From: Phycisphaerales bacterium
Lineage (GTDB): Bacteria; Planctomycetota; Phycisphaerae; UBA1845; PWPN01
Assembly (NCBI GenBank): GCA_012729595.1
Contig: JAAYCU010000296.1
Span: 1-32,939 of the forward strand
Direction: 5' to 3'
DNA length: 32,939 nt
Shown: in pieces, positions 2,885 through 31,543 of the stretch
How positions within the stretch are numbered: position 1 is the first letter of the stretch
Layout of the letters: every line of letters starts with the position of its first letter
Notes under the pieces: model-generated
Seen by the model: only the letters and a program-made list of their open reading frames with translations
Databases searched by the model: none
What the model was told of the DNA's origin: nothing
Program-made: the position numbers and the translations under genes

Positions 2885-4504
2885 ATGAGGCTTGTATCTC
2901 ATAGGTATACGAATACTAGGCGGTGGGCGACCATCGGTTGTGTTACGGTGCTGCTTTGCGGCACCGGATGCGTATCGCCCTGGTGGAACGATTTTCTGAA
3001 TCCATCCGAACTGGGCAATTTTCGGGAGGCCCGGGTCACGGAAATCCTGCGTAGCAGTAGTTTTCGTGATACCCCCAAGGAGATATCCGGCACTACAGAC
3101 CCGACCCCCGAGGATCTGGTGGCGTTGGTGGAGGCTTATAAAATCGGCCCGGGCGACATGGTGGAAATTCGTATTCTCGATCTGCTCGCAAAGGATGCGG
3201 AAAGCGTTTTTCAGCCGCGGGTGGACGATCTGGGGTGGATCACGGTTTCGCAGTTGGGCCATATCAATGTCGAGGGGTTGACGGCTCGTGATCTGGAGCT
3301 GGAACTTAAGAACAAAGCTAAAGAAAAAGGGATTTTCGGTCCGGACTACGAGCCGACCGTGTTGGTTTCCGTTCTTGATCAGCGCCAGCGGTTGTTCAAC
3401 CTTTCGGGCGCAGTCCGACAATCCGGCATGTATGCGATGCCTCGTTCCGATTACCGTCTCCAGGAAGCGATCAACCAAGGTGGTGGTTTGGACGATTTGG
3501 TCCGTTGGGTGTATGTGACACGCGATCAGCTGCGTCCATTAGAGGTCAGGGATACAAGTAAACCTTACTCCACCGGGGCCCCCTTGCCCACTGCCGGGCA
3601 GCACGGAACAACTCCGCCGGTTTCGCCGGCATTTCTTTCGGAAATGGCCGGAAGCCCTAACCCCCCGTCGGCCGGTACTGGTACACCGGGAGACCGGGCC
3701 ACTGCCGTACGGGAGGACATCGATACCGCCGAAGCCCGACGAGAGTTGGAGGAGGTCTTGGAGCTTCCCGGAAATCAAGGGGGACCGGTCACCGACCCGA
3801 ACGAAGCTCAGCCACCATTTATCTTTGTTAATGATCGTTTTATCGAAGCCCCGAAAACCGATTCACAAGACCCTGCGCCCGTGCCGGTGAGCGAGCCGGT
3901 CGCCGCTCCGGCACCGACTCCGGAAATCGTGGATTGGGCGGAGCTGGTGGCCGAGGGTCGTCAGCGCATCATCAAAATCCCGGCCGACAAGCTTCGTCAA
4001 AGCGACAGCAATTACAACATCGTCATTCGGCCGGGCGACTGGATTCGATTGGAAACCGGCCCAACCGGCAGCTATTACGTCATGGGGCATGTACGTAGTC
4101 CGGGTAACCGAAGCCAGTTGAGTTACGCCTTCGGGGGTGAAGATGTGACCATACGACAGGCGCTGGCCTCGGTGGGTGGCTTGGATCCTCTGGCCTGGCC
4201 TTCGCGTTGCGAGCTGGCCCGCAAGCTGGAAGGCGATCGGGTTGAAATCACCCAATGGAATCTGGCCCGAATCATCGATGGGCGGGATCCGGACATCTAC
4301 CTTAAGCCGGGCGACGTAGTCAACGTCGGCACGCATGCGATGGCTATGTTGTTGTATAAGATCCGCAACGGATTCCGTCTTGGTTACGGGTTTGATTTTT
4401 CCTATAGCCGCAACTTCGCGGATATTGATAGCTTTGGCGGGCAGGTGAATCCCGACACGCGGCGCCGGGCCGACCTGCAGCGTCGTTTTCCGAATTTATT
4501 CTGA
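2885..4504 (+). CDS. polysaccharide export lipoprotein, Wza-like (Poly_export/SLBB)
   Basis: A 539-residue outer-membrane exporter candidate. The N-terminus is a signal sequence (T-I-G-C-V-T-V-L-L-C-G-T-G-C) with a lipobox-like end at Cys29. Residues ~85-205 form the Poly_export plus SLBB region: Y-K-I-G-P-G-D-M-V-E-I-R, then L-G-x-I-x-V-x-G-L-T-A-R-D-L, then L-S-G-A-V-R-Q-S-G-M-Y. A Pro/Ala/Thr-rich segment follows (about 220-345). A second SLBB-like unit comes next: I-R-P-G-D-W-I-R-L, V-M-G-H-V-R-S-P-G-N, A-L-A-S-V-G-G-L-D, and L-K-P-G-D-V-V-N-V. Proteins of this family form the channel that carries exopolysaccharide over the outer membrane. At 539 residues it is longer than Wza (about 380), mainly through the linker. 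The exosortase follows after 16 bases. Start ATG 2885 has only a weak GGA upstream. Confidence 0.87.
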   Translation: MRLVSHRYTNTRRWATIGCVTVLLCGTGCVSPWWNDFLNPSELGNFREARVTEILRSSSFRDTPKEISGTTDPTPEDLVALVEAYKIGPGDMVEIRILDLLAKDAESVFQPRVDDLGWITVSQLGHINVEGLTARDLELELKNKAKEKGIFGPDYEPTVLVSVLDQRQRLFNLSGAVRQSGMYAMPRSDYRLQEAINQGGGLDDLVRWVYVTRDQLRPLEVRDTSKPYSTGAPLPTAGQHGTTPPVSPAFLSEMAGSPNPPSAGTGTPGDRATAVREDIDTAEARRELEEVLELPGNQGGPVTDPNEAQPPFIFVNDRFIEAPKTDSQDPAPVPVSEPVAAPAPTPEIVDWAELVAEGRQRIIKIPADKLRQSDSNYNIVIRPGDWIRLETGPTGSYYVMGHVRSPGNRSQLSYAFGGEDVTIRQALASVGGLDPLAWPSRCELARKLEGDRVEITQWNLARIIDGRDPDIYLKPGDVVNVGTHAMAMLLYKIRNGFRLGYGFDFSYSRNFADIDSFGGQVNPDTRRRADLQRRFPNLF

Positions 4505-4520
4505 CGAGAGCGAAAGACGT

Positions 4521-5459
4521 TTGTTGACAGCGACATCCATTCAGAGGCGTACCCCTTTAAACCCGACGGTGATGATCGGGCAGTTCGCGGTCTTGATGTT
4601 GATCGTCGCCGTGTTGTACCGGCACGTCCTGACCGGGCTGGTATATTCTTGGAAAAACAATTCGGACTGGTCGCACGGGTTTATCATTCCGTTTTTCAGC
4701 CTTTATTTTCTCTATACACAACGGCACCGCTTCCCTGCGACCTTGCGTAACCGCAATGCCCTTCCTCAGTTGGCCGGGGCCGCGTTACTGGTGCTGTCGT
4801 TCGGGCTGTTTATCGCCAGCATTTTCTATAAGATGGAGTATCCTAAGCGTTGCTCGCTCTTGTTGAGCATGCTGGCCGTGATTTTGATGGTCTGGGGCTG
4901 GCCGGTATTCCGTTGGAGCTGGTTTGCGGTGGCCTTTTTGATGTTCGCCGTTCCCCTGCCCCATCGGGTATTCCAGGAACTTACCATGCCCTTGCGGGGC
5001 GTGGCCGCGGTGGTTTCGGCCATGGTTCTGCAGTTTATTCCGGATATGTTCGCCGAGGCTCATGGCACGGTGGTGGAATATATTTATCGGGGGCAGGCGG
5101 ACGTGTTGGATGTCGAGCGGGCCTGTAGCGGCATGCGCCTGCTGATGACCATGATGGCCTTGGGGGTGGCCATGGCCTTCATGCATGACCGGCCGTTGTG
5201 GCAGCGTTTGGTGATGGTCTTATCCTGCGTGCCTATCGCCATCTTCTGCAATGTTGTACGGGTCACCTTGACCGGCCTTCTGGTGGTCTTCGGCCGAGCG
5301 GACCTGGCTCACGGTACCTGGCACACCCTGATGGGGCTGGGCATGCTGTTCGTGGCCTTTGCCCTGTACGGGGCGATTTCCTACGTGTTGAATCATTTGT
5401 TCGTGGAGGAGGCGGAAGCGGACGAGTCCGTGGCGGCCACAGGAGGTTTGGGCGGATGA
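4521..5459 (+). CDS. exosortase (PEP-CTERM protein-sorting transpeptidase)
   Basis: A multi-pass inner-membrane protein of 312 residues with about eight hydrophobic segments. It carries the exosortase catalytic set: Cys202 in E-R-A-C-S-G-M, Arg247 in F-C-N-V-V-R-V, and His268 in H-G-T-W-H-T-L-M-G. The early motif S-D-W-S-H-G-F-I-I-P is also typical. Exosortases recognise and cleave C-terminal PEP-CTERM signals and are normally encoded with exopolysaccharide genes, as here. The protein at 11424-12020 bears such a signal. The given start is TTG 4521; ATG 4572 is a plausible shorter start that keeps all membrane segments. The stop overlaps the start of the next gene (ATGA), indicating translational coupling. 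I cannot assign the exosortase subtype. Confidence 0.9.
   Translation: MLTATSIQRRTPLNPTVMIGQFAVLMLIVAVLYRHVLTGLVYSWKNNSDWSHGFIIPFFSLYFLYTQRHRFPATLRNRNALPQLAGAALLVLSFGLFIASIFYKMEYPKRCSLLLSMLAVILMVWGWPVFRWSWFAVAFLMFAVPLPHRVFQELTMPLRGVAAVVSAMVLQFIPDMFAEAHGTVVEYIYRGQADVLDVERACSGMRLLMTMMALGVAMAFMHDRPLWQRLVMVLSCVPIAIFCNVVRVTLTGLLVVFGRADLAHGTWHTLMGLGMLFVAFALYGAISYVLNHLFVEEAEADESVAATGGLGG
5441..5446 (+). promoter_or_regulatory. ribosome binding site deciding the Wzz/BY-kinase start
   Basis: A perfect AGGAGG nine bases before ATG 5456, inside the 3' end of the exosortase gene. It decides the start against an upstream in-frame extension and fits coupled translation through the ATGA overlap. Confidence 0.8.
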
Positions 5460-7711
5460 CCACGATGCCGATGACGGTCCAGGAACGCTTACCTATGCCC
5501 CTTATCCAGGCGGCCCGGGCTCCGGCCGGGCCGGGCAGCGGATTCAACGTCAATGATTTTCTACGCATTCTCAAGCAGCGGATTTTCCTGATAATTTTCA
5601 TTTTCCTTTTCATAGGAGCGGCCACGACCGGTCTGACTTTTTATCTACGGGCCCACTACCCTTTATGGCGTGCCAGTTCGGCCATTCAGGTCGAGGCGCC
5701 GGGGATCAAGATGCCCATGCAACTGGGCGGCGAGATGCGCGTTCAGTCGGACGTGATCGACCGGTTCGTCAACGACCAGGCCGTGTTGCTGAAAGATGAG
5801 CTCCTGCTCGGCGAGGTTTTGCAGGACGCCGCCGTGCGGGCCACGCAATGGTTCAATACGCAGGATCGTCCTCTGATCGAATTGCGGGACAAGCTGCGTA
5901 TTCGCCAGATCCCCCAGACCAGCTACCTGGAAGTAAGCTTTTCCACGCACGTGCCGGACGACGCCCCGGTGATCGTCAACGCGGTCGTGGCCAGATATTT
6001 GCATCGGGTGACAACGTCCTCCCAGCAAGAGTTGACCGAAGAACTGGCCAGCGTACGCGAACGTGTCCGGCTTTTGGAGCAGGATCTGGAGCGCATCCGA
6101 AACGAGCGTCAGCGTTTTCAGGAAAATCAAATGGGCACCGTCGGCCTGAACGCCGGGATCAATGTGATCACCGACACGTGGCGTATCCTGGCCGATCAGG
6201 TGACTCGCCTGGAATCGGAGAAACTTCAGTACCAGACGGCCTACGAAAACATGACCGCGGTGGATGCCAGTCAGATCGCCATTAGTCCGCAAATGATTCA
6301 GATGATTCAGCGGGATCCTCAGATCGCGGCCTTGCAGAACCAGTTGCTCGGCCTGAATCAGGAACTGCAGGCCCGTCAGGAGGAGGGGCTGGGGCCGAAT
6401 CATCGTGCCCTGACGGATATCCAGGCTCGGATCATGGTGGTGGAGAGTTCGCTGCTGGAACTGCAGCGTCGACGAGAGGCGGAGATTCGGGAGAACGAAG
6501 TCAATTCCGCCTACACCTTCTATGTCAACGCAGCCCAGGCGGAGCTTCAGTTACGCGAAAGACTGATGGAGGCCGAGAGCAAGCAGCGAGACCTGGATCG
6601 CAACTTGGCGGTTTATCAGAGTTATGATGAACGTCTGCAGGAACGTACTGAGCAGCTTCGACAGGTGACGGCGTATGCGGATCAGTTAAACATGGTGATC
6701 GCCGAACGTGGGGCCGTGCGAGTGCGGCAGCGGGTCCGGGCAATCAAACCACTGGAACCTTATTTTCCGAACTTCAAGGTTATGATTCCCGCCGGGGCGA
6801 TGGCCGGCTTGATGCTCGGGCTGGGGCTGGCATTGCTGTTGGAGTTCATGGACACCTCGGTCAAGACTACGCGGGATCTGATCAGGCACGTGCATATCCC
6901 CATCCTGGGCACGGTGCCCGACCTCGACGATGAGGAAATCGACCTGGAGAAAATCGAGCTGGCCGTGCATCTGGCCCCGAGATCGATGATTGCCGAAGCC
7001 TTTCGCACCTTCCGCACCAACCTGTTGCTTAGCGCGCCGCTCGATCAGCAACGCCTCGTATTGCTGACCAGTGCCAAGCCGGAGGAAGGCAAGACGGCGG
7101 TGTCCATAAATCTGGCCGCCGCTATTGGGCAGAGCGGCCGTCGGGTCTTACTGGTGGACGCCAATTTCCATCAGCCCGCGTTACGCGCCCATTTCCCGAA
7201 TCTTCCGGCGGAAGGCTTGAGTAACATCCTGATCGGACAGCGTAAGTTAGACGATTTAATTCATCATACCGAGTTGCCGAACCTTGATGTGCTGAACAGC
7301 GGACCGATTCCGCCCAATCCCGCGGAATTACTGGCCGGCGGCTATATGGGGCAGTTCCTTAAAGAAGTCGCCGAACGCTACGAGCAGGTGATTATTGATG
7401 GTCCGCCGGTTCTGTTGCTCAGCGATGCGTTGGTTCTGGCCGGCTCGGTTGACGGCGTGATCCTGGTTTGCCGGGCCAAGGTGAGCCAGCGTGGAACGGT
7501 CCTGCGGGCTCGCGAGCAACTCGAACAGGTCAACAGCCGTATCCTCGGGGCCGTGCTTAACGCCGTGCAAGTCGCTCGGGGCGGCTACTATCGCGAACAG
7601 ATTCGCAGCTATTATGATTACCAGCCCGCCGAGGTACTGGCCGCGGAGAGTGAGGCCCGTCTATCCGCCAAGCCTGACGACGAGGAACTCGACCACGAAT
7701 CCCAAGGGTAA
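5456..7711 (+). CDS. polysaccharide chain-length determinant fused to BY-type tyrosine kinase (Wzz/Wzc-like)
   Basis: A 751-residue fusion. A Wzz-type region comes first: cytoplasmic N-terminus, membrane segment ~40-62, and a long periplasmic part with coiled coil ~180-430. A second membrane segment lies at ~442-463. The cytoplasmic kinase domain has a Walker A-like P-E-E-G-K-T (Lys546), a Walker A'-like V-L-L-V-D-A-N (Asp568) and a Walker B I-I-D-G-P-P (Asp648). The tail has clustered tyrosines (G-G-Y-Y, S-Y-Y-D-Y), the usual autophosphorylation site. Such proteins set polymer length and control export through phosphorylation. ATG 5456 is favoured: AGGAGG lies at 5441-5446, and the start overlaps the exosortase stop. 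A longer frame back to 5198 is only overlap with the exosortase gene. Confidence 0.92.
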   Translation: MTTMPMTVQERLPMPLIQAARAPAGPGSGFNVNDFLRILKQRIFLIIFIFLFIGAATTGLTFYLRAHYPLWRASSAIQVEAPGIKMPMQLGGEMRVQSDVIDRFVNDQAVLLKDELLLGEVLQDAAVRATQWFNTQDRPLIELRDKLRIRQIPQTSYLEVSFSTHVPDDAPVIVNAVVARYLHRVTTSSQQELTEELASVRERVRLLEQDLERIRNERQRFQENQMGTVGLNAGINVITDTWRILADQVTRLESEKLQYQTAYENMTAVDASQIAISPQMIQMIQRDPQIAALQNQLLGLNQELQARQEEGLGPNHRALTDIQARIMVVESSLLELQRRREAEIRENEVNSAYTFYVNAAQAELQLRERLMEAESKQRDLDRNLAVYQSYDERLQERTEQLRQVTAYADQLNMVIAERGAVRVRQRVRAIKPLEPYFPNFKVMIPAGAMAGLMLGLGLALLLEFMDTSVKTTRDLIRHVHIPILGTVPDLDDEEIDLEKIELAVHLAPRSMIAEAFRTFRTNLLLSAPLDQQRLVLLTSAKPEEGKTAVSINLAAAIGQSGRRVLLVDANFHQPALRAHFPNLPAEGLSNILIGQRKLDDLIHHTELPNLDVLNSGPIPPNPAELLAGGYMGQFLKEVAERYEQVIIDGPPVLLLSDALVLAGSVDGVILVCRAKVSQRGTVLRAREQLEQVNSRILGAVLNAVQVARGGYYREQIRSYYDYQPAEVLAAESEARLSAKPDDEELDHESQG

Positions 7712-22078: not shown

Positions 22079-22158
22079 CTGCGAGCTGAACGGATAATAG
22101 TGATCATCCTTATTAGGGCCGGGCCGAACCACATCAGAAAATATTGAGGAGAATCATC

Positions 22159-23376
22159 ATGTTTCGACAATACCTGACCGCGGGAGTTGTGTCTTGCATG
22201 GCGATAGTCTTGATGGGGCAGGGGTGTCCGTCAGCAGGTGGGGGCGGAGGTGGCGGGGGCGGCAACGGTGGCCAGACCACGACCGGTTCGCAAGGATTGT
22301 TCGACCAGGTCTGGGACGATTTCGACCGCAACTACTCATATTTCACCTATAAGAACATCGACTGGGACCAACTCAAGGCGACGTATCGACCGGAATTCGC
22401 GGCCAACCTGAGCGCGGACGAGTTTGTCGATCGGCTTGTTCCGATGCTGAGCGAGCTGAGCGACTGGCACGTAGCCGTCCAGCGCGCCGATGGCACGTGG
22501 GTAGGCACTGAGACGGAGGAGATACCAAATAATTACACGACTACGCCGCGCAATCGTTACACCCTCGACGGCTATCAGACTCTCGGTGATAACGTGATCT
22601 GGCATGCCTGGTTCGAGAACAATCTCGCCTATCTGCGGATCGATACGCTGGAAACCGGGGCTTGGAACGGGATAACGGACGATGACATCGAGACTCTATT
22701 TCAAACCTATGCCGACGCGGCGGGAATGATCATCGATATCCGCCCCAACAGCGGGGGCAACGAGAACAACGCCATGCGGATCATGTCGCGGCTGATCGGC
22801 GCGGCCGTAACTTACGGGTATGTCGAGACGCGCGACGGCCCCGATCATGACGACTTCGATGAGCTGGTGGAAAAGACGCTCACGCCGAGTACGGGCACGC
22901 GGTTTAACGGCCCGGTCGTCGGGCTGATCGGCCGGCGGTGCATGAGTTCGGCCGAGTGGTTTACCCTCATGCTGCGGGCGGCCGGCGCGAAGCTGGTGGG
23001 GGACACCACCCGAGGTGCCTCGGGCAATCCGCGGGAGTTCGGTCCGCTGTCCAACGGCGTCAAGTATATGCTTTCCACCTGGATCGCCTACGCGGCCGAA
23101 GAAACCGGCGGCGTAGGGTCGGAGATCGAGGACCACGGCATCGCCCCCGACGTAGCCATCGCTCCGGATAACAGCTTCGACGGCGAGCACGATTACGTCG
23201 TCGAGGAGGCGATAACTCAATTACAGGCCATGATCGACGGGTTAGATGACGATGATGCCGACGATGACGATTGGCCGTGGGAAGACGACGATTGTTTATA
23301 CGATTGTCTGGCAGACTGCGATGAGGGGGATGGATTCTGCCAAGATCTTTGTGTTGAGATATGTGCTGATTTTTAA
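22159..23376 (+). CDS. S41-family peptidase lipoprotein with acidic, cysteine-patterned tail
   Basis: A 405-residue protein; GAGGAG at 22146-22151 sets ATG 22159. The signal sequence ends in L-M-G-Q-G-C (Cys23, lipobox-like), followed by a run of nine glycines as a linker. The S41 core has L-S-D-W-H-V-A-V (His104), I-D-I-R-P-N-S-G-G-N near 195, and R-R-C-M-S-S-A-E-W-F with Ser263/Ser264 as nucleophile candidates. The following G-D-T-T-R-G-A-S-G-N-P lacks the catalytic lysine of CtpA-type enzymes, so a tricorn/IRBP-like Ser/His layout is likely. The last ~45 residues are an Asp-rich stretch and then six cysteines spaced C-x3-C-x3-C-x6-C-x3-C-x3-C (Cys379 to Cys402). The substrate is unknown. 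Confidence 0.87.
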   Translation: MFRQYLTAGVVSCMAIVLMGQGCPSAGGGGGGGGGNGGQTTTGSQGLFDQVWDDFDRNYSYFTYKNIDWDQLKATYRPEFAANLSADEFVDRLVPMLSELSDWHVAVQRADGTWVGTETEEIPNNYTTTPRNRYTLDGYQTLGDNVIWHAWFENNLAYLRIDTLETGAWNGITDDDIETLFQTYADAAGMIIDIRPNSGGNENNAMRIMSRLIGAAVTYGYVETRDGPDHDDFDELVEKTLTPSTGTRFNGPVVGLIGRRCMSSAEWFTLMLRAAGAKLVGDTTRGASGNPREFGPLSNGVKYMLSTWIAYAAEETGGVGSEIEDHGIAPDVAIAPDNSFDGEHDYVVEEAITQLQAMIDGLDDDDADDDDWPWEDDDCLYDCLADCDEGDGFCQDLCVEICADF

Positions 23377-23389
23377 CAATAGGTTAACA
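23373..23389 (+). promoter_or_regulatory. candidate PHO box, distal pair
   Basis: Two identical TTAACA hexamers at 23373-23378 and 23384-23389, exactly 11 bases apart (five-base spacer). The first overlaps the stop codon of the S41 gene. The 11-base direct-repeat layout is that recognised by PhoB/PhoP-type response regulators. It may be a secondary or auxiliary site for the pst operon. Confidence 0.55.
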
Positions 23390-23432
23390 ATAACGCAATA
23401 TTCGGGGATTTCCGGACGTTGCGGGCGTAGTC

Positions 23433-23486
23433 TTAGCGCAATCTTAACAATTCCTTCAAACGACAATAACAGGCCAACCCTAAAGT
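23433..23486 (+). promoter_or_regulatory. candidate PHO box array and -10 element of the pst operon
   Basis: Four hexamers in strict 11-base phase: TTAGCG (23433), TTAACA (23444), TTCAAA (23455), ATAACA (23466). A -10-like TAAAGT follows at 23481-23486, ten bases after the last repeat. That matches activator-dependent Pho promoters, in which the repeats replace the -35 box. The array lies about 120-175 bases before pstS. The response regulator gene is not in the window. Confidence 0.65.
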
Positions 23487-23607: not shown

Positions 23608-24468
23608 ATGACACTTAATCGTACCTGGATAGTCGGGCTGACCATGGTCGGCATGACGGCGATGTTGGCCGGTAATGTGTTCGGTCAGGAAGGCGAAACG
23701 ACGAAGGGGGCGGTTACCATTCGGCTGGACGGTTCGACTACCGTGGGCCCGGTCGTTAAGGAGTTCGCTGCTTACTACATGAAGAACAATCCGGAGGCGA
23801 ACATCACGGTAAGCGAATCGGGCAGCGGAAACGGGGCCAAGAGCCTGATTAATGGTATGTGCGAAGTGGCCAGTATGTCCCGATTCATGAAGGATAACGA
23901 GTTCAAGGCGGCTATCGACAAGGGGGTGTATCCGGTGGCCCATGCCATTGCCGTGGATGGTATCGCGGTGGTTGTGCATCCGGCCAATCCGGTCAAGGGG
24001 TTAACCAGCGAACAGGTGCGGGATATTTATACGGGCAAGATTACCAACTGGAATCAAGTGGGCGGGCCGGATCGGGCGATTATCGTGATAAGTCGGGACA
24101 CCAACAGCGGTACCTACGAGTGTTTCGAGGAAATTGCATTACAGAAAGAGCGGATGGCTGCCAATGTGGAGTATGTCGGTAGCAATGGAGCCATGCGTCA
24201 ACGGGTGCAGAGTACGCCGACCGCCATCGGCTTTTTAGGCTTGGGCTTCACCGATCGGACGGTAAAGGCGCTGGAAATCAATGCCGTGGCTCCGAACCGT
24301 CAGACGGTCGTTTCTGGTCGGTACCCGATTGCCCGGCCGTTGTTCCTATTCACCAACGGATGGCCACAGATGGGCACCCATCTGCACGCATTCGTGAATC
24401 TGTACCTGACCCGGAAGGGGCATGAGATTATTGAGGCTATCGGGTTCGTGCCGGTTACGGATTACTGA
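23608..24468 (+). CDS. pstS: phosphate-binding periplasmic protein of the Pst transporter
   Basis: A 286-residue binding protein with a GGAAGGAG site before ATG 23608. The signal peptide runs M-T-L-N-R-T-W-I-V-G-L to V-F-G-Q. Phosphate-contact motifs of the PstS-like family are visible: R-L-D-G-S-T-T-V-G-P near residue 36, E-S-G-S-G-N-G-A-K-S near 72, and I-S-R-D-T-N-S-G-T-Y-E near 165. Y-T-G-K-I-T-N-W-N-Q-V-G-G is also diagnostic. It delivers periplasmic phosphate to PstC/PstA. It has no lipobox, so it is probably soluble in the periplasm. It is the first gene of pstSCAB-phoU, under the 11-base repeat array. pstC starts 37 bases downstream. Confidence 0.94.
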   Translation: MTLNRTWIVGLTMVGMTAMLAGNVFGQEGETTKGAVTIRLDGSTTVGPVVKEFAAYYMKNNPEANITVSESGSGNGAKSLINGMCEVASMSRFMKDNEFKAAIDKGVYPVAHAIAVDGIAVVVHPANPVKGLTSEQVRDIYTGKITNWNQVGGPDRAIIVISRDTNSGTYECFEEIALQKERMAANVEYVGSNGAMRQRVQSTPTAIGFLGLGFTDRTVKALEINAVAPNRQTVVSGRYPIARPLFLFTNGWPQMGTHLHAFVNLYLTRKGHEIIEAIGFVPVTDY

Positions 24469-24505: not shown

Positions 24506-25678
24506 ATGGAGCCGGCCCAATCCATGACATCCCGACAGGCGCCCGGGCGGCGCAATGCTCTGGTGCTTAGCAAACGTGCCAGCCGGCTTAATCGGTTGGC
24601 TGCCCTGCTGGGCCATGGTCTGTTGCTATTGCTTACCCTGAGTTCCGTCCTGTCGGTCCTGTTCATCTTCTATTTCATTATCCGGGACGCTATTCCATTC
24701 TTTCAGTTACGCGGCTTCCGTGAATTCTTTGCCGGTACGCAATGGTATCCTTCGGCGAATCCGGCTTCGTTCGGGGCCTTTCCGATCTTTTTGGGCAGTA
24801 TGCTGGTGACCGCCGGAGCCGTGATGGTCGCGGTCCCATTCGGGGTTTGTGCCTCGGTCTGTTTGAGCGACATTCTGCCTTTTACTCTGCGTCAACTGGT
24901 CAAGCCGGTCATCGAGATACTGGCCGCGATTCCATCGGTGGCTTTCGGGTTTTTTGCCTTGGTGGTTTTCGCCCCGCGATTGCAGGCCGACGGAGGAGGA
25001 TTGTTGTCCGTGGCCTCCTGGATGATCGGGGCGCCGGTGGCGGGGCTGACGGCGTTTATCCTGAGCGATCTGCTCACGGCGGGGCTTTCGGGGACAGCCC
25101 GGTGGGTTGGTCGTGGGCTGTTACTGGTTGTGCTTGGCGCTCTGGCGTTTTGGGGGTTGTGGGCAGCGGGAAGCTTTTTCCGAAGCTTGGACATCTCCAG
25201 CGGAACCAACGCTCTGAACGTCTCCATTATCTTGGGGATTATGGCTTTACCGACCGTCATCAGTGTTTCGGAGGACGCCCTGCAGGCGGTCGGCCGTGAG
25301 TTGCGGGAGGGGGCTTATGCCCTCGGCTCGACACGGGCGGAGACTTTGTTGCGCGTGGTGATGCCGGCGGCCAGTAGCGGAATATGCGCGGCGGTTATTC
25401 TCGGGGTAATGCGGGCTTTTGGCGAAACCATGGTAGTCTGGATGGCTTCAGGAAATGCGGCCCATGTTCCCAGCCCGTGGTACAACCTGCTTCAGCCGGT
25501 GAGGACATTGACCGCCACTATCGCCGGGGACATGGGCGAGGCGGATCATGTCACCGGCTCGGAACGCTATCACGTCTTGTTTGCAATGGCCTTGGTTTTG
25601 CTGACCGTGTCGTTCGTGTTCAGTTGGTTGAGCGAGCGGGTCGTGAGCCGGGCTGTGCGGATTAGAGGGGGGCAGTAG
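24506..25678 (+). CDS. pstC: phosphate ABC transporter permease PstC
   Basis: A permease of 390 residues. ATG 24506 is preferred, with GGAG about eight bases upstream; the open frame back to 24422 overlaps pstS and is not supported. About seven or eight hydrophobic segments are visible. The conserved cytoplasmic coupling loop is E-G-A-Y-A-L-G-S-T-R-A-E-T-L-L-R-V-V-M-P-A-A-S, followed by G-V-M-R-A-F-G-E-T-M-V-V. It is longer than E. coli PstC (319): an extra hydrophobic hairpin (G-R-G-L-L-L-V-V-L-G-A-L-A-F-W-G-L-W) sits between the V-F-A-P-R and S-I-I-L-G-I-M-A-L-P-T segments. With PstA it forms the membrane channel. One base separates its stop from the pstA start. Confidence 0.93.
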   Translation: MEPAQSMTSRQAPGRRNALVLSKRASRLNRLAALLGHGLLLLLTLSSVLSVLFIFYFIIRDAIPFFQLRGFREFFAGTQWYPSANPASFGAFPIFLGSMLVTAGAVMVAVPFGVCASVCLSDILPFTLRQLVKPVIEILAAIPSVAFGFFALVVFAPRLQADGGGLLSVASWMIGAPVAGLTAFILSDLLTAGLSGTARWVGRGLLLVVLGALAFWGLWAAGSFFRSLDISSGTNALNVSIILGIMALPTVISVSEDALQAVGRELREGAYALGSTRAETLLRVVMPAASSGICAAVILGVMRAFGETMVVWMASGNAAHVPSPWYNLLQPVRTLTATIAGDMGEADHVTGSERYHVLFAMALVLLTVSFVFSWLSERVVSRAVRIRGGQ

Positions 25679-25679
25679 C

Positions 25680-27023
25680 ATGCAACTGGCTTCCCGAAAA
25701 CTGATCGATCGGTCGTTCACCGGATTGAGTGTCTTTTCCATTGTGCTGGTGGCCGGTGCCCTGGTCATTATTCTGACGCCCATTGTGGGCCGGGGAATGG
25801 GCGCGGTGTTTTTCCGGGGCACGGTCGAGCATCGCCAAGTGCAGTTGGATCTTTTCGGACACGGTCGCGGCGAGGATATTGCCGCCGAAGTCGCCGCGGC
25901 CGAGGAAGCCCGTCGTCAGGTGTACGTGCTTATCGCGGAATTCGAGCAGGAACTGGCCGATAGTATACGTGCCCGGCGGCAATACGCCGAAGCCATGGAG
26001 GAGGTGAAGGCCGGTCTGCGCGAGCTGCTCGGGCCGTTTCCGGGCGAGACGCCGGTGCTATACCGCGAGCGTTATGGGCAGACCCGTTGGGACCGCGCGC
26101 AGATTAAGCTTCAGCGGGTGCTTTACGCGGAAACCTATGACTATTCCGATCCGACCCAAATGGGCCAAAAAGTACTGACGCCGCGGGTTGAGGAATTCGC
26201 GGGCACCTCGCTCGAACCTTTGTTTACCATCCTGCCGGCCCGGCTGGAGGAGATGCTGCGGCCGCGACCGACTTTTTACTGGCGGTTTTTCACGAACACG
26301 GCCACGGCGGATTATTCCTTCGGAGGCATTTGGCCGGACATCCTTGGTACATTCTATCTGACTTTCTGGACGATATTGTTCGCGGTACCGATGGGCATCA
26401 TCTCGGCCATTTATCTGGTGGAGTACGCCCGCGAAGGTAACCGGATCGTCGTTCTGGTCCGGACATGCATTAATACCCTGGCCGGCGTGCCGAGTATCGT
26501 TTTTGGTTTGTTCGGCCTGGCGTTTTTTATCAATACGCTAAGGGTTTCGGAGGGGCGCAGCGTTCTGGCCGGATCCTTGACCTTGGCCCTGCTGATTCTA
26601 CCACTGGTGATCCGTTCGGCCGAGGAGGCTATCCGAGCGGTCCCGCATACCTATAAGGAAGCCTCGCTCAGCCTGGGGGCGGGGCAATGGCGGACGATTG
26701 TCCGGGTGATTCTGCCGGCGGCCTTGCCAGGCGTCCTAACCGGTGTGGTTATCAGCATGGGGCGGGCAGCCGGCGAAACCGCCCCCATAATCTTCACTGC
26801 CGCCGTAAGCGTAGCTAGGCCCATGGGGCTCTGGTCTGGACTTTCCGAGCCTACCCACGCCCTGCCCTGGAGCGTATATACGCTTTGCACCGAGCACAAA
26901 ACGGTTGACGAAATACGCCACGTGCAGTACGGAATGGTATTTACCCTGGTACTGATGGTACTGTTATTGAATTCGGTGGCGATCTTGTTGCGGGCTCGAA
27001 TATCCCGAAAATTGAGAGGGTAA
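25680..27023 (+). CDS. pstA: phosphate ABC transporter permease PstA, with large periplasmic insertion
   Basis: A 447-residue permease, against about 296 in E. coli. The first membrane segment lies at ~12-40. A soluble insertion of about 175 residues follows (~42-218), including a charged helical stretch probably forming a coiled coil ([13 protein letters not shown], then [11 protein letters not shown]). The typical permease core comes next: [32 protein letters not shown], and the coupling loop [15 protein letters not shown]. Related enlarged PstA proteins are known. The insertion could interact with PstS or the phosphate sensor kinase, which is inference. Its stop overlaps the pstB start (TAATG). 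Confidence 0.92.
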
Positions 27024-27853
27024 TGATGGCGGTGATGACCGGGAATATTACTATTCAGTCGTGTAAGCCAACCGATCCACAGCCCTCGACGGCAGATTGG
27101 AAAGCCCATGTGCGGGCGGAGGATTTCTCCGTATTTTATCATCGCAACGAAGCGGTCAAAAAGGTTACGTTGGATATCCCCGTCGGGCAGGTGACGGCCA
27201 TCATCGGACCGAGTGGTTGCGGGAAGAGTACCTTGTTGCGGGCTATCAACCGCATGAACGATTTGATTCCCGGTTGCCATACAACGGGTCTGCTGGCCTT
27301 GGACGGAGTGGATATATACGGGCCGCAAATCGATGTGACCGCTCTGCGACGCAAGGTCGGTATGGTTTTTCAGAAGCCGAACCCCTTTCCGAAGACGGTG
27401 TTCGACAACGTGGCTTACGGACCGCGGATTCATGGGGTGCGTCGTCGGGCTCATCTGGCTGAGATCGTTGAGCGTAGTTGCCGACAGGCGGCCTTGTGGG
27501 AGGAGGTCAAGGATCGGCTGCATGAGAACGCCTTGGGCTTATCGGGTGGGCAGCAGCAAAGGCTGTGTATCGCCCGGGCCCTGGCCGTCGAGCCGGAGTT
27601 GTTATTGATGGACGAGCCGACCAGTGCTCTGGACCCCATCGCCACGGATCGGATCGAAAGCCTGATCGCAGAGTTGCGCGGGCGGTATACCATTGCGATC
27701 GTGACCCACAACATGCAACAGGCCGCGCGTGTGTCCAACTTGACCGCGTTTATGTATATGGGCGAGCTGGTCGAGGCCGCGGTAACTGATCGTATATTCA
27801 CCAATCCCCAACAGCGGTTAACCCAGGAGTATATTACAGGACGATTTGGATAA
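27023..27853 (+). CDS. pstB: phosphate ABC transporter ATP-binding protein PstB
   Basis: A 276-residue ATPase that powers phosphate import on the inner face of the membrane. All motifs are intact: Walker [10 protein letters not shown] (residues 62-70), the PstB-typical L-R-A-I-N-R-M-N-D after it, Q-loop F-Q-K-P-N-P-F-P, signature L-S-G-G-Q-Q-Q-R from residue 173, Walker [14 protein letters not shown] from about 194, and H-loop [10 protein letters not shown]. The C-terminus [10 protein letters not shown] is standard for PstB. The start overlaps the pstA stop; ATG 27026 is an alternative. phoU follows after four bases. Confidence 0.97.
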
Positions 27854-27857
27854 GCTT

Positions 27858-28520
27858 ATGTCCACACAGTTTTTACAAATGCTGGATGTTCTGAGACGCC
27901 GTTCGCTGCGGATGGCCAGTGCGGTGGAGGATGTATTATCCGAGGCCTTCGAGGCGTTGACTCGTGTTGACCACGGCCTGGCCAGAAGAGTAATCGATCG
28001 CGACGCGGAGATCGACCGGGAAGAGGTCGAGGTCGAGGCGGAGGTTATTCGGCTGATTACCCTTTTTCAGCCGATGGGTGCCGATATCCGGTTCCTCTGC
28101 ACCGTCCTGAAGGTCAATAACGATCTCGAGCGCATCGCCGATTGCGCTGTGAATATTGCCGAGCGGGTGATGCATTTGGATCCCGCCCTGGACCGTGAGC
28201 CGGATGAAGATATTCGTAATATCTGCCCGGTGATCCAGCGCATGCTTCGGAGAGTGGTGCAAGCCTATGCGGCCAGCGATGTGGCCGAGGCCAGGGAGAT
28301 TCGCGGGGAGGACGAGATCGTAGATATATTTTACGGAGAATTCATAAGAAAGATGGTAACCCAGGCGGCCGAGGCCCCGGAGCGGATGGCGACCCATCTC
28401 GATATCCTGAGTGTTGCCAAGAACCTGGAACGCATCGCGGACCATGCGACGAACATAGCGGAAGATGTGATCTTTCTTACGACCGGCCAAATTGTCCGAC
28501 ATGGTCGGGCAGATGGGTAA
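27858..28520 (+). CDS. phoU: phosphate signalling complex protein PhoU
   Basis: A 220-residue all-helical protein. It contains the duplicated PhoU metal-binding signature: N-D-L-E-R-I-A-D-C-A-V-N-I-A-E and, about 100 residues later, K-N-L-E-R-I-A-D-H-A-T-N-I-A-E. PhoU links the Pst transporter to the phosphate sensor kinase and represses the Pho response when phosphate is plentiful. ATG 27858 is chosen over TTG 27846, which overlaps pstB and has no site. It ends the pst operon; a 214-base gap to the porin gene suggests a separate promoter there. Confidence 0.95.
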   Translation: MSTQFLQMLDVLRRRSLRMASAVEDVLSEAFEALTRVDHGLARRVIDRDAEIDREEVEVEAEVIRLITLFQPMGADIRFLCTVLKVNNDLERIADCAVNIAERVMHLDPALDREPDEDIRNICPVIQRMLRRVVQAYAASDVAEAREIRGEDEIVDIFYGEFIRKMVTQAAEAPERMATHLDILSVAKNLERIADHATNIAEDVIFLTTGQIVRHGRADG

Positions 28521-28600: not shown

Positions 28601-28677
28601 GACCATACTCGACAGACGCATATCTTGATTGGAAGTAAACGAAAATATTACGCAGCATACTCAATACATGCGCAGGC

Positions 28678-28694
28678 TTAATATTCTCTTAATA
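28678..28694 (+). promoter_or_regulatory. 11-base-phased TTAATA direct repeat (second candidate PHO box)
   Basis: TTAATA occurs at 28678-28683 and 28689-28694, exactly 11 bases apart, with a weaker third unit (GCGACA) in phase at 28700. The phase is the same as in the array before pstS, but the hexamer differs at one position. A -10-like TATAAA lies at 28730-28735, farther away than at pstS. The placement would bring the porin under phosphate control. Confidence 0.4.
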
Positions 28695-28734
28695 CTTGCG
28701 CGACACACTGCCTGTTGTTGAAGGATTCTTATAA

Positions 28735-30108
28735 ATGCGACAAGGGAGACATGGCATGGGAACATGTGGCGTCGGAAGGGCATGGTTGGTTTCTTGGTTG
28801 CTTTTGTGCACGCCGGCGGTTGGACAAAGCGCCCCGGAAAGCACGGCGCCGGAGGTTGGACTAAACCTCCCGGAAAGCACTGCGTCCGCTACCCAACCCA
28901 GTCCGCCGTCGCGTAAACCGTATGATCCTTGGACCAGCAAGGAAATGACTGGCGACTGGGGTGGGTTACGTACCGAATTGCGGGATATTGGGATCGATTG
29001 GGAACTGACCTATCAGCAGCAGTTTCAGCAGAACTATCGCGGAGGCCTGCAAACCCATAACGGGCATCGATTATCCGGTACGTACGACTGGGTATTGCGC
29101 CTGGATTTCGAGAAGATCGGACTGATGCCCGATGCGGGTTTTTATTTCAAGGCCAAGGGGGGCTATTCCGATGGGATCAATCCGCACAAGGTGGGGGCCT
29201 CCAGCTATGCCAACGTCAATTCTGATGTCGGCGGCGACAAGGCGATTTATGTCAACAAATGGTGGTTCTGGAAGAAGTTCGCGGACAAGAAAATCGAGTT
29301 ACGCCTCGGCGTTCTGGAACTGAACAAGGACCTGTTCGACGTCAGCCCTTACGCCAACCACGAAGACAGGGATTTTCTGAACCGCCTTTCTATTCGGAAC
29401 CCGACCATTCCACTTGGCACCGGGATGGGGGCGTTTGTCAAAATCGAGCCGGTAGACTGGTTCTATTTTCAGTCGGCGGCGATAGATACGCAGGCCAGGA
29501 AATACCGTACGCAGTTTGACACCGCCTTTCATGACGAGGCCTGGTACACCGGCCTCTGGGAAATGGGCGTGACCCCCAAGTGGTCGTCGGCCAAAGGCCC
29601 CATGCCGGGCAATCTGCGGGTTGGCTGGTGGTACAACCCGACCTTTCGCGAGGTCTTCAAGGATACGATGAAAGGGCTGCGCAAGCCGGAGTATCGCGGG
29701 GACGATGTCGGTTTTTACCTGGGTGCGGATCAACTGATCTGGAAGGAAAACGACGATCCCAAGGATAAGCAGGGGTTGGGGTGGTACGGCCGCTACGGGT
29801 GTGCCCACGGCGATATCAACAAGATCAGCGACTACTGGGCCACGGGTTTGTCCTATACCGGATTATTGCCGGGCCGGGATAAGGATGTTTTCGCCTTCGG
29901 GGTGTCCCAGGCGATTCCCTCCGGTCAGTACCGTCGCGAAAAGAAACCCGAGGCTTGCCGCGAGACAGTTTACGAATGGTTCTATAAGTGCTACGTGACC
30001 CCCTGGTTTATCGTATCGCCTGACTTGCAGGTGGTGGTCGATCCGGGCGGTACGAAATCAGGTCGCGACGCCATTGTTGGCGGCGTGCGTATCCAGCTTA
30101 TTTTCTAA
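28735..30108 (+). CDS. OprB-type outer-membrane porin
   Basis: A protein of up to 457 residues. The signal peptide is R-A-W-L-V-S-W-L-L-L-C-T-P-A-V-G-Q, then a Pro/Ser/Thr-rich stretch. The OprB hallmark is M-T-G-D-W-G-G-L-R-T-E-L-R-D-I-G-I (about 68-85). Alternating amphipathic strands follow up to a C-terminal strand, V-G-G-V-R-I-Q-L-I-F, ending in Phe as outer-membrane barrels do. OprB proteins are called carbohydrate-selective porins, but context (after pstSCAB-phoU, with 11-base repeats upstream) suggests a role in phosphate or phospho-ester uptake here. Two starts are possible: ATG 28735 (AAGGA nine bases upstream) or ATG 28756 (GGGAG seven bases upstream). The latter would place TATAAA at 28730 as a -10 box. 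Confidence 0.85.
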   Translation: MRQGRHGMGTCGVGRAWLVSWLLLCTPAVGQSAPESTAPEVGLNLPESTASATQPSPPSRKPYDPWTSKEMTGDWGGLRTELRDIGIDWELTYQQQFQQNYRGGLQTHNGHRLSGTYDWVLRLDFEKIGLMPDAGFYFKAKGGYSDGINPHKVGASSYANVNSDVGGDKAIYVNKWWFWKKFADKKIELRLGVLELNKDLFDVSPYANHEDRDFLNRLSIRNPTIPLGTGMGAFVKIEPVDWFYFQSAAIDTQARKYRTQFDTAFHDEAWYTGLWEMGVTPKWSSAKGPMPGNLRVGWWYNPTFREVFKDTMKGLRKPEYRGDDVGFYLGADQLIWKENDDPKDKQGLGWYGRYGCAHGDINKISDYWATGLSYTGLLPGRDKDVFAFGVSQAIPSGQYRREKKPEACRETVYEWFYKCYVTPWFIVSPDLQVVVDPGGTKSGRDAIVGGVRIQLIF

Positions 30109-30135: not shown

Positions 30136-30351
30136 ATGAGCAGTAAAGGCGGTATGATCCGCGCGATCAAGATTTCGGTTCTCATGGTGCTCGGTGCCCT
30201 GTCGCTTGGCAGCAGTTGTGCCGCGGATATTCGCTACAACATCGTCCAGGGCGGATTAGGTTTCGTCAAATCCACTACCGCCGATGTCGCGGGTACGGCA
30301 TTTCCCCTGGCCGACTGGCTGGCCGCGATTCTCGCTAGCCCGGCGCAATAA
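30136..30351 (+). CDS. small exported protein of unknown function
   Basis: A 71-residue protein with a strong site (GGTGGAG at 30122-30128) seven bases before ATG 30136. The N-terminal half is a signal sequence (I-R-A-I-K-I-S-V-L-M-V-L-G-A-L-S-L-G-S-S-C) that could be lipid-modified at Cys28, although the lipobox is imperfect. The mature part of about 43 residues (A-A-D-I-R-Y-N-I-V-Q-G-G-L-G-F-V-K) has no motif that I know. It lies 27 bases after the porin gene on the same strand, so it is probably co-transcribed and may be a partner of the porin. Its stop faces the convergent deacetylase gene 12 bases away. Confidence 0.7.
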   Translation: MSSKGGMIRAIKISVLMVLGALSLGSSCAADIRYNIVQGGLGFVKSTTADVAGTAFPLADWLAAILASPAQ

Positions 30352-30363
30352 AGTGTTGGGTTG

Positions 30364-31272
30364 TCAGGAATTCAGCAGACAGAGTTCGGGATGGTCTTCC
30401 GGAGTTTGTGCCGGGTCATCAATAGAGTTGAGTCGCAGTACCTCCCCGACTGATGCGAAACGGAACTCCGCGAAAAGACGGCCCAGTCTGGCTGGTACGC
30501 GCGAACGCCAGAGGGACTGCATGAAGTATCGTTTGCTGGATATGGAGTACCCCTGTTGTCGGAACCAACTTACCTCGCCGGTGGCCATTTCGTAGGGGTG
30601 CAGATAGAGGATGGCCGGTCGACCTTGGCGATTAAGGCTGCGAATGCCGGCGGCCATTAACGCTGCGGGCAGCAGACGCGTGTAACCCCCGCCGCATAGT
30701 GGGAGATTCCAGCCGGCCAGTCGGACCGTCGTGAGCGGAAATTCCCACAAGTCGCAGTCTGCCCAGCGGTACGGAAAACGCGGAGCGTCGGGGATGCCGT
30801 AGCGCCGCTTGCGAACGGGGAATATGCTCGAACTGTAGCAGAAGCCGTTGCGGGAGAGTATCGGCCCGGCCCAGCTTGATCTGTTGGTGATGGAGAATGC
30901 GGGAGCCCGGTATCCGATGGGGCGTCGGCCGCTCTGGCTTTCGATCACGGTTGTCGCTTGCCGGATGTCCGCTTCAAATTGCTCCGGAGTCAGGTTGTAG
31001 ATCAGTTCGTGGCCGTAACCGTGCGAGCCGATCTCATGGCCGGCGGCCGCCACCGCCGGCAGCAGATCGGGGTACTGCTCGCAAACCCTGCCCAGGGCGA
31101 AAAAAGTGGCCCGCACCTTGTGGGCATCAAGGAAATCCAGCAGGCGATACACGTTTTCAACCACCCGTGGGGTCACGGGCAGACGCGGATCAAGCACCGC
31201 CTGACCCCAGTCTTCCAGGTCCACGGTCATGGCGTTGATCGGCTCGGGATGGTGCCGGTTATGGAATCCCAT
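30364..31272 (-). CDS. polysaccharide deacetylase, exosortase-system type (NodB domain plus DUF3473-like tail)
   Basis: A 302-residue protein from ATG 31272. NodB motifs are in order: motif 1 A-M-T-V-D-L-E-D-W (catalytic and metal-binding Asp), motif 2 H-E-I-G-S-H-G-Y-G-H (metal His pair), motif 3 G-Y-R-A-P-A-F-S-I, then W-E-F-P-L-T-T-V-R and L-Y-L-H-P-Y-E. The tail R-R-Y-G-I-P-D-A-P-R-F-P-Y through F-A-S-V-G-E-V-L resembles the DUF3473 part of deacetylases found with exosortases. It would remove N-acetyl groups from the exported polysaccharide. No signal peptide is seen, so it may be cytoplasmic. The open frame reaches TTG 31362 but starts there inside decayed sequence; ATG 31230 is a shorter option. 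Confidence 0.87.
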   Translation of the reverse strand: MGFHNRHHPEPINAMTVDLEDWGQAVLDPRLPVTPRVVENVYRLLDFLDAHKVRATFFALGRVCEQYPDLLPAVAAAGHEIGSHGYGHELIYNLTPEQFEADIRQATTVIESQSGRRPIGYRAPAFSITNRSSWAGPILSRNGFCYSSSIFPVRKRRYGIPDAPRFPYRWADCDLWEFPLTTVRLAGWNLPLCGGGYTRLLPAALMAAGIRSLNRQGRPAILYLHPYEMATGEVSWFRQQGYSISSKRYFMQSLWRSRVPARLGRLFAEFRFASVGEVLRLNSIDDPAQTPEDHPELCLLNS

Positions 31273-31358
31273 ACTTCGTAATTTATCGGAAGTATCCGAG
31301 GCCGACTTGTGTTCTCGCTCCGGGCACCGAGGGGGATGAAGCGTTGGAATTGCAGGCC

Positions 31359-31543
31359 TCAAGCCCGGCTTTCGGTTCCGCCCGTATCCGCCTTGGCCAC
31401 GGCGTTGAGGAAACGGGTGTACTAGGCCAGCGTCACCATGTCCCGCATGATCGCGTACTCGTAAGCTACCGCCCCAAACCCGGTATCCGCGTCCGCCTGG
31501 TTCCGCGTGTTACCCACGGTTACGGTCCGGAAGCCCGTCAGAC
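31359..31543 (-). pseudogene. remnant of a SUMF1 / formylglycine-generating-enzyme-like domain protein
   Basis: On the minus strand, downstream of the RHS fragment and in another frame, a 60-codon stretch reads F-R-T-V-T-V-G-N-T-R-N-Q-A-D, then T-G-F-G-A-V-A-Y-E-Y, then V-T-L-A-stop-Y-T-R-F-L-N-A-V-A. This matches the start of SUMF1-type domains common in planctomycete secreted proteins (pattern T-G-Y-G-A-V-x-Y-E-Y ... V-T-x-x-Q-Y-x-x-F-L-N-A-V-A). A TAG replaces the expected Gln codon CAG, and a TGA ends the stretch at 31359-31361. The rest of the domain is missing. It has no start, no site and two stops, so it is debris. Confidence 0.65.

Follow-up and report, generated by a model that had tools for sequence, protein, structure and literature searches.

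The window analysed here, 32,939 nucleotides of a Phycisphaerales bacterium (contig JAAYCU010000296.1), carries the phosphate-uptake genes in the order pstS-pstC-pstA-pstB-phoU, followed by a gene for an OprB-family porin (Table 1). The repeats that are the subject of this analysis lie 5' of pstS, where they adjoin an S41 peptidase ORF (22144-23376) with an acidic, cysteine-containing tail, whose stop codon is located inside the first TTAACA. An Rfam scan of the window returned one tRNA and nothing else, and the pst leader thus contains no known RNA element. Directly 3' of the porin is a 71-aa, secreted-looking ORF (30136-30351), and a similar small ORF is seen by eye between porin and pstS in a related genome (G005, locus L014). 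Beyond the porin, a DUF3473 polysaccharide deacetylase (30364-31362) belongs to the same exosortase/exopolysaccharide group as the polysaccharide export protein, exosortase EpsH, and Wzz/ATPase protein encoded at 2885-7711.

Table 1. Coordinates of the pst operon, the porin gene, and their candidate Pho regulatory elements in the window
Feature	Position	Strand	Basis
TTTAAC-n5-GTTAAC pair, probable extra Pho box	23372..23388	+	Third-best window site, 18.4 bits
TATTCG, weak -10-like hexamer, 10 bases 3' of upstream pair	23399..23404	+	Sequence only; 3/6 TATAAT matches
Pho unit 1, CTTAGC	23432..23437	+	Sequence; identical string CTTAGCGCAATCTTAAC also 5' of pstS in G003, G011, G023
Pho unit 2, CTTAAC, equal to consensus	23443..23448	+	Sequence and relatives' motif
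Pho unit 3, CTTCAA, degenerate	23454..23459	+	Sequence; unit 3 of the genome's own phoB operator similar (CTTCAC)
Pho unit 4, AATAAC	23465..23470	+	Sequence
-10 hexamer TAAAGT, 10 bases 3' of unit 4	23481..23486	+	Sequence; -10 phase kept in relatives
pstS, phosphate-binding protein	23608..24468	+	TIGR02136 over cut-off
pstC, permease	24506..25678	+	TIGR02138 over cut-off
pstA, permease	25680..27023	+	BPD_transp_1 and operon position
pstB, ATPase	27023..27853	+	TIGR00972 over cut-off
phoU	27846..28520	+	TIGR02135 over cut-off
Second Pho operator, CTTAAT-n5-CTTAAT, before porin gene	28677..28693	+	Second-best window site, 22.3 bits
CACACT, -10-like, 10 bases past second porin-operator unit	28704..28709	+	Sequence; relatives' spacing rule
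OprB-family porin, presumed Pho-regulated outer-membrane channel	28735..30108	+	OprB, E 4.1e-37

The first-pass annotation had described six TTAACA-like repeats before pstS, a pair and a run of four, with a -10 element ten bases after the last. Its coordinates are correct and the 11-base spacing is exact within each group, although units 1, 3, and 4 of the run prove to be degenerate. The distance to the -10 element depends on the register: in the CTTAAC register of the relatives, the spacer between unit 4 and TAAAGT is AGGCCAACCC, 10 bases, whereas 9 bases are counted from ATAACA. As the full set of the window, the six repeats were incomplete, since the porin operator at 28677 had been missed. 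A search of the 4.1-Mb genome for the exact string TTAACAnnnnnTTAACA gave one match, that in the window. With a weight matrix built from relatives alone, the main array reaches 27.0 bits (p 3.8e-10 per position), a score expected by chance 2.5e-5 times per window and 0.003 times per genome. The de novo motif behind this matrix, trained with the window excluded, ranks the site at 23428 first, that at 28673 second, and that at 23368 third; with the relatives' matrix, all other window positions score at most 9.4 bits, apart from shifted and reverse-strand overlaps of these three sites.

Conservation before pstS in relatives had been set beforehand as a refutation test, and the repeats were found to be conserved. 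The pstS loci compared came from genomes belonging to the same family or order as well as from named genomes. Within 38 pstS upstream regions, [CT]TAA[CT] pairs are found 11 bases apart 28 times (in 19 of the 38), 22 apart 13 times (in 10), and 33 apart 6 times (in 6), while any other distance accounts for at most two pairs. Dinucleotide shuffles of these regions (500 trials) gave on average 0.18 sequences with an 11-base pair and never more than 2, a comparison that overstates independence because the relatives share ancestry; this concern is limited by the spread over several phyla and by the held-out matches given below. Arrays of four units are also present in G003, G009, and G011, as well as in records from Phycisphaerales, Phycisphaerae, and Sedimentisphaerales (L110, L115, L116). 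Expectation maximization with a motif width of 33 bases, run on 48 pstS and phoB upstream regions of relatives with the source genome left out, recovered cTTAACnnanTcTTAAC, an 11-base repeat present in approximately 79% of them; within 400 bases of pstS, no operator was found in G008 and some others. Around 36 relatives' sites, 20 of 48 TATAAT-like hexamers fall into one of the eleven possible phases. Peaks are seen at distances of 26, 37, and 48 bases, counted from the first unit, which places them past the second, third, and fourth unit, respectively. Such peaks are as expected if the -10 element starts 15 bases past the last TTAAC, whatever the number of units. Judged by this conservation, the array is almost certainly a functional Pho operator.

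A period of 11 bases is near the helical repeat, and at 46% G+C the array region is less G+C-rich than the window (57%), features that would also suit AT-rich, helically phased DNA acting as a curvature or UP-like element that aids RNA polymerase with no dedicated regulator. This explanation is extremely improbable, since the strand-asymmetric unit keeps a C after TTAA, the reverse strand of the 38 upstream regions holds no [CT]TAA[CT] pair at 11 bases, and the matches cluster 5' of pstS, of phoB, and of one type of porin gene.

Further targets were sought with a second model, R1, which was derived from 31 sites in relatives and excludes the source genome. In the 4.1-Mb genome (406 contigs), the only R1 match at E<=10 is the pstS array itself (E 0.22). 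A three-unit pattern that tolerates up to three mismatches is matched at three places: before pstS, before phoB, and where an unrelated ORF starts. The reversed control of this pattern also has three matches, so that the identity of the genes rather than the number of matches carries the weight. Two-unit patterns that allowed mismatches lacked specificity, their reversed control matching as often or more, and matches on contigs C43 and C308 were set aside as lying inside unrelated ORFs. The operator of the genome's own phoB (locus L043), CTTAACATGGACTTAATCACATCTTCAC, starts 123 bases 5' of the phoB ATG and is composed of CTTAAC, CTTAAT, and CTTCAC, separated by ATGGA and CACAT and followed by TAGTAT. 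This PhoB-like gene lies on contig C140 with a histidine-kinase gene adjoining, and the phoB-phoR pair is not adjacent to pst in the source genome; phoB is found within 4 kb of pstS in G009, G016, G003, and G007. Operators also stand 5' of phoB in G002, G007, G008, G009, G013, and others. The best family for the C140 protein is TIGR02154, at 236 bits against a cut-off of 296, and the PhoB-like proteins of all relatives searched are likewise below this cut-off; its identity as PhoB thus rests on the best match, the synteny in relatives, and its own operator. The first-pass reading of PhoB/PhoP binding is supported: the geometry, the position 5' of pstS, the retention in relatives, and the same operator at the genome's phoB-phoR are all borne out.

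Direct repeats in tandem are a common trait of the OmpR/PhoB class (PMC3973317), the genome encodes at least one other full-length regulator of the OmpR type (C118), and the PhoB profile has 46 genome matches, mostly to the receiver domain. The array could thus be bound by a different OmpR-family regulator that also uses 11-base direct repeats, rather than by the phosphate-responsive PhoB. This is very unlikely, given that the same operator stands before phoB as well as before pstS, neighbouring genes in several relatives, and that the best PhoB match is the C140 protein, with 235.9 bits compared with 185.1 for C118.

The array is very probably the Pho operator of pstSCAB-phoU under PhoB-like control, with phoB-phoR and the porin as further targets; binding, activation, and control by phosphate are what we infer from the sequence arrangement. 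In the established model of PhoB, its effector domains occupy direct repeats in head-to-tail order and make contact with the sigma factor (PMC4415409; structure via PMC3973317). By analogy, under phosphate limitation the PhoR-like kinase would phosphorylate the PhoB-like regulator, both encoded on C140, and phosphorylated PhoB would bind the four 11-base CTTAAC-type units head-to-tail on one face of the DNA as two dimers. Since the last unit ends 10 bases before the -10 element, bound PhoB is predicted to substitute for the -35 element and recruit RNA polymerase, switching pst on under phosphate starvation. The same PhoB may act at its own phoB-phoR promoter and at the promoter of the OprB-family porin, which would make up an uptake regulon with autoregulation. 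The array is a clear yet ordinary case of a well-known class of bacterial switch.

The porin operator connects an OprB-family porin with phosphate uptake; it scores 9.6 bits with R1. Operators are also seen before OprB homologues in several other genomes. The OprB homologues make up a large family of paralogues, most of which have no operator: 6 of 27 carry one at >=14 bits, compared with 1 on the reverse strand, and thus only a subset of such porins appears to be Pho-controlled.

In the relatives' register, the TTTAAC of the upstream pair is at 23372 and the GTTAAC at 23383. This pair is probably an additional Pho box: its score with the relatives' matrix has an expectation of 0.022 per window, and the exact TTAACA pair exists in one copy genome-wide. 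The run of four may instead be the sole operator and the pair a chance likeness where the peptidase ORF ends, an account that is less favoured and yet has an appreciable probability, since the pair overlaps the stop codon, reaches 5.7 bits with R1, has a weak -10-like hexamer downstream, and is out of phase with the array, the distance from 23383 to 23432 being 49 bases. It is doubtful that TATTCG marks a possible second start.

In Bacillus subtilis, PhoP boxes consist of TTAACA-like hexamers, TT(A/C/T)A(C/T)A, with a period of approximately 11 bases. The repeats at 23373, 23384, and 23444 fit this consensus, and the first-pass annotation had likened the hexamer to the Bacillus unit. Of the published units found, the cyanobacterial SphR box, CTTAACCT, comes closest; it has 3-base linkers and occurs in three or more tandem units (PMC1906773). 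It shares with the present array the first six bases CTTAAC, the 11-base period, and the tandem units before pst genes; however, it belongs to another phylum, and positions 7-8 of the window units are GC, AA, AC, and AG rather than CT. The E. coli PhoB unit is CTGTCAT (PMC4415409), and is absent from the array, which reads CTTAGC, CTTAAC, CTTCAA, and AATAAC. E. coli PhoB, approximately 41% identical to the planctomycete PhoB, likewise has 11-base direct repeats before pst and phoB that replace the -35 element and end about 10 bases before the -10, and the E. coli phoB promoter, read from its sequence, has the same arrangement of units and -10 within one base. The difference lies in the unit, CTGTCA there and CTTAAC here, and in the number, which is often four here.

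A candidate for the molecular basis of this difference lies in the protein. Arg201 of E. coli PhoB contacts a guanine specifically (PMC3973317), and both Arg200 and Arg201 are replaced by small residues in planctomycete PhoBs, in which Ala or Ser occupies position 201 and Ser, Thr, Ala, or Val position 200. Outside the planctomycetes, Gly, Ser, His, or Trp at position 201 accompanies CTTAAC-type boxes, and Arg201 accompanies TG-type boxes in both loci where the type is clear, with one exception (L162). The loci compared comprise L105, L116, L145, L147, L171, and L178 (CTTAAC-type; Gly/Ser201) and L137 and L140 (TG-type; Arg201). The association of Arg201 with box type has p ~0.02 with relatedness ignored; by the count of exact 11-base pairs, neither box type wins in 16 of the 32 loci that lack Arg201 and in 10 of the 13 that have it, and the comparison is only suggestive because this count misses many degenerate operators. 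The correlation, drawn from few and partly related cases, suggests that a change of residue 201 would explain the shift from CTGTCA to CTTAAC. That residue 201 of the PhoB recognition helix alone sets the box, Arg giving the TG-type and Ala, Ser, Gly, or His the CTTAAC-type in several phyla, is a tentative proposal to which we assign somewhat less than an even chance. According to a published comparison, cyanobacterial SphR, the box of which is also CTTAAC-type, retains the residues that contact DNA (PMC1906773), and this may speak against the rule. If the rule is true, the class of box would be predictable from the PhoB protein.

The expectation that the repeats would supply a motif for the planctomycete Pho regulon holds within the order (pstS, phoB, OprB porin) and only partially across the phylum. 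Among 29 further planctomycete pstS upstream regions, mostly of other classes, 9 reach >=14 bits, compared with 2 on the reverse strand. In several distant planctomycetes (L262, L266, L272, L277, L279), the pstS units drift to CTTCAC or CTTCAT. CTTAAC-type boxes also precede pstS in Ignavibacteria (L178), in a Chlorobiota record (L171), in some Desulfobacterota (L145, L147), and in others; by its distribution in these sequences, the box type is no planctomycete invention. A literature search, conducted mainly at the level of titles and abstracts, found no description of a Planctomycetota Pho box, and the tested motif together with the -10 rule allows Pho regulon annotation in this largely uncultured group.

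Over 81 genomes of the order, R1 has a match in 39. Held-out matches stand before pstS in L202, L204, L205, and L221, before phoB in L222 (at 325 bases), and, as a four-unit array, before an OprB homologue in L194; others, before unrelated or unidentified ORFs, may be due to chance. Pho-like sites are also located in L197 and L218, both of one family, before related secreted proteins with an ITE(Y/W)MY start and a PEP-CTERM-like end, which are possible new members of the Pho regulon.
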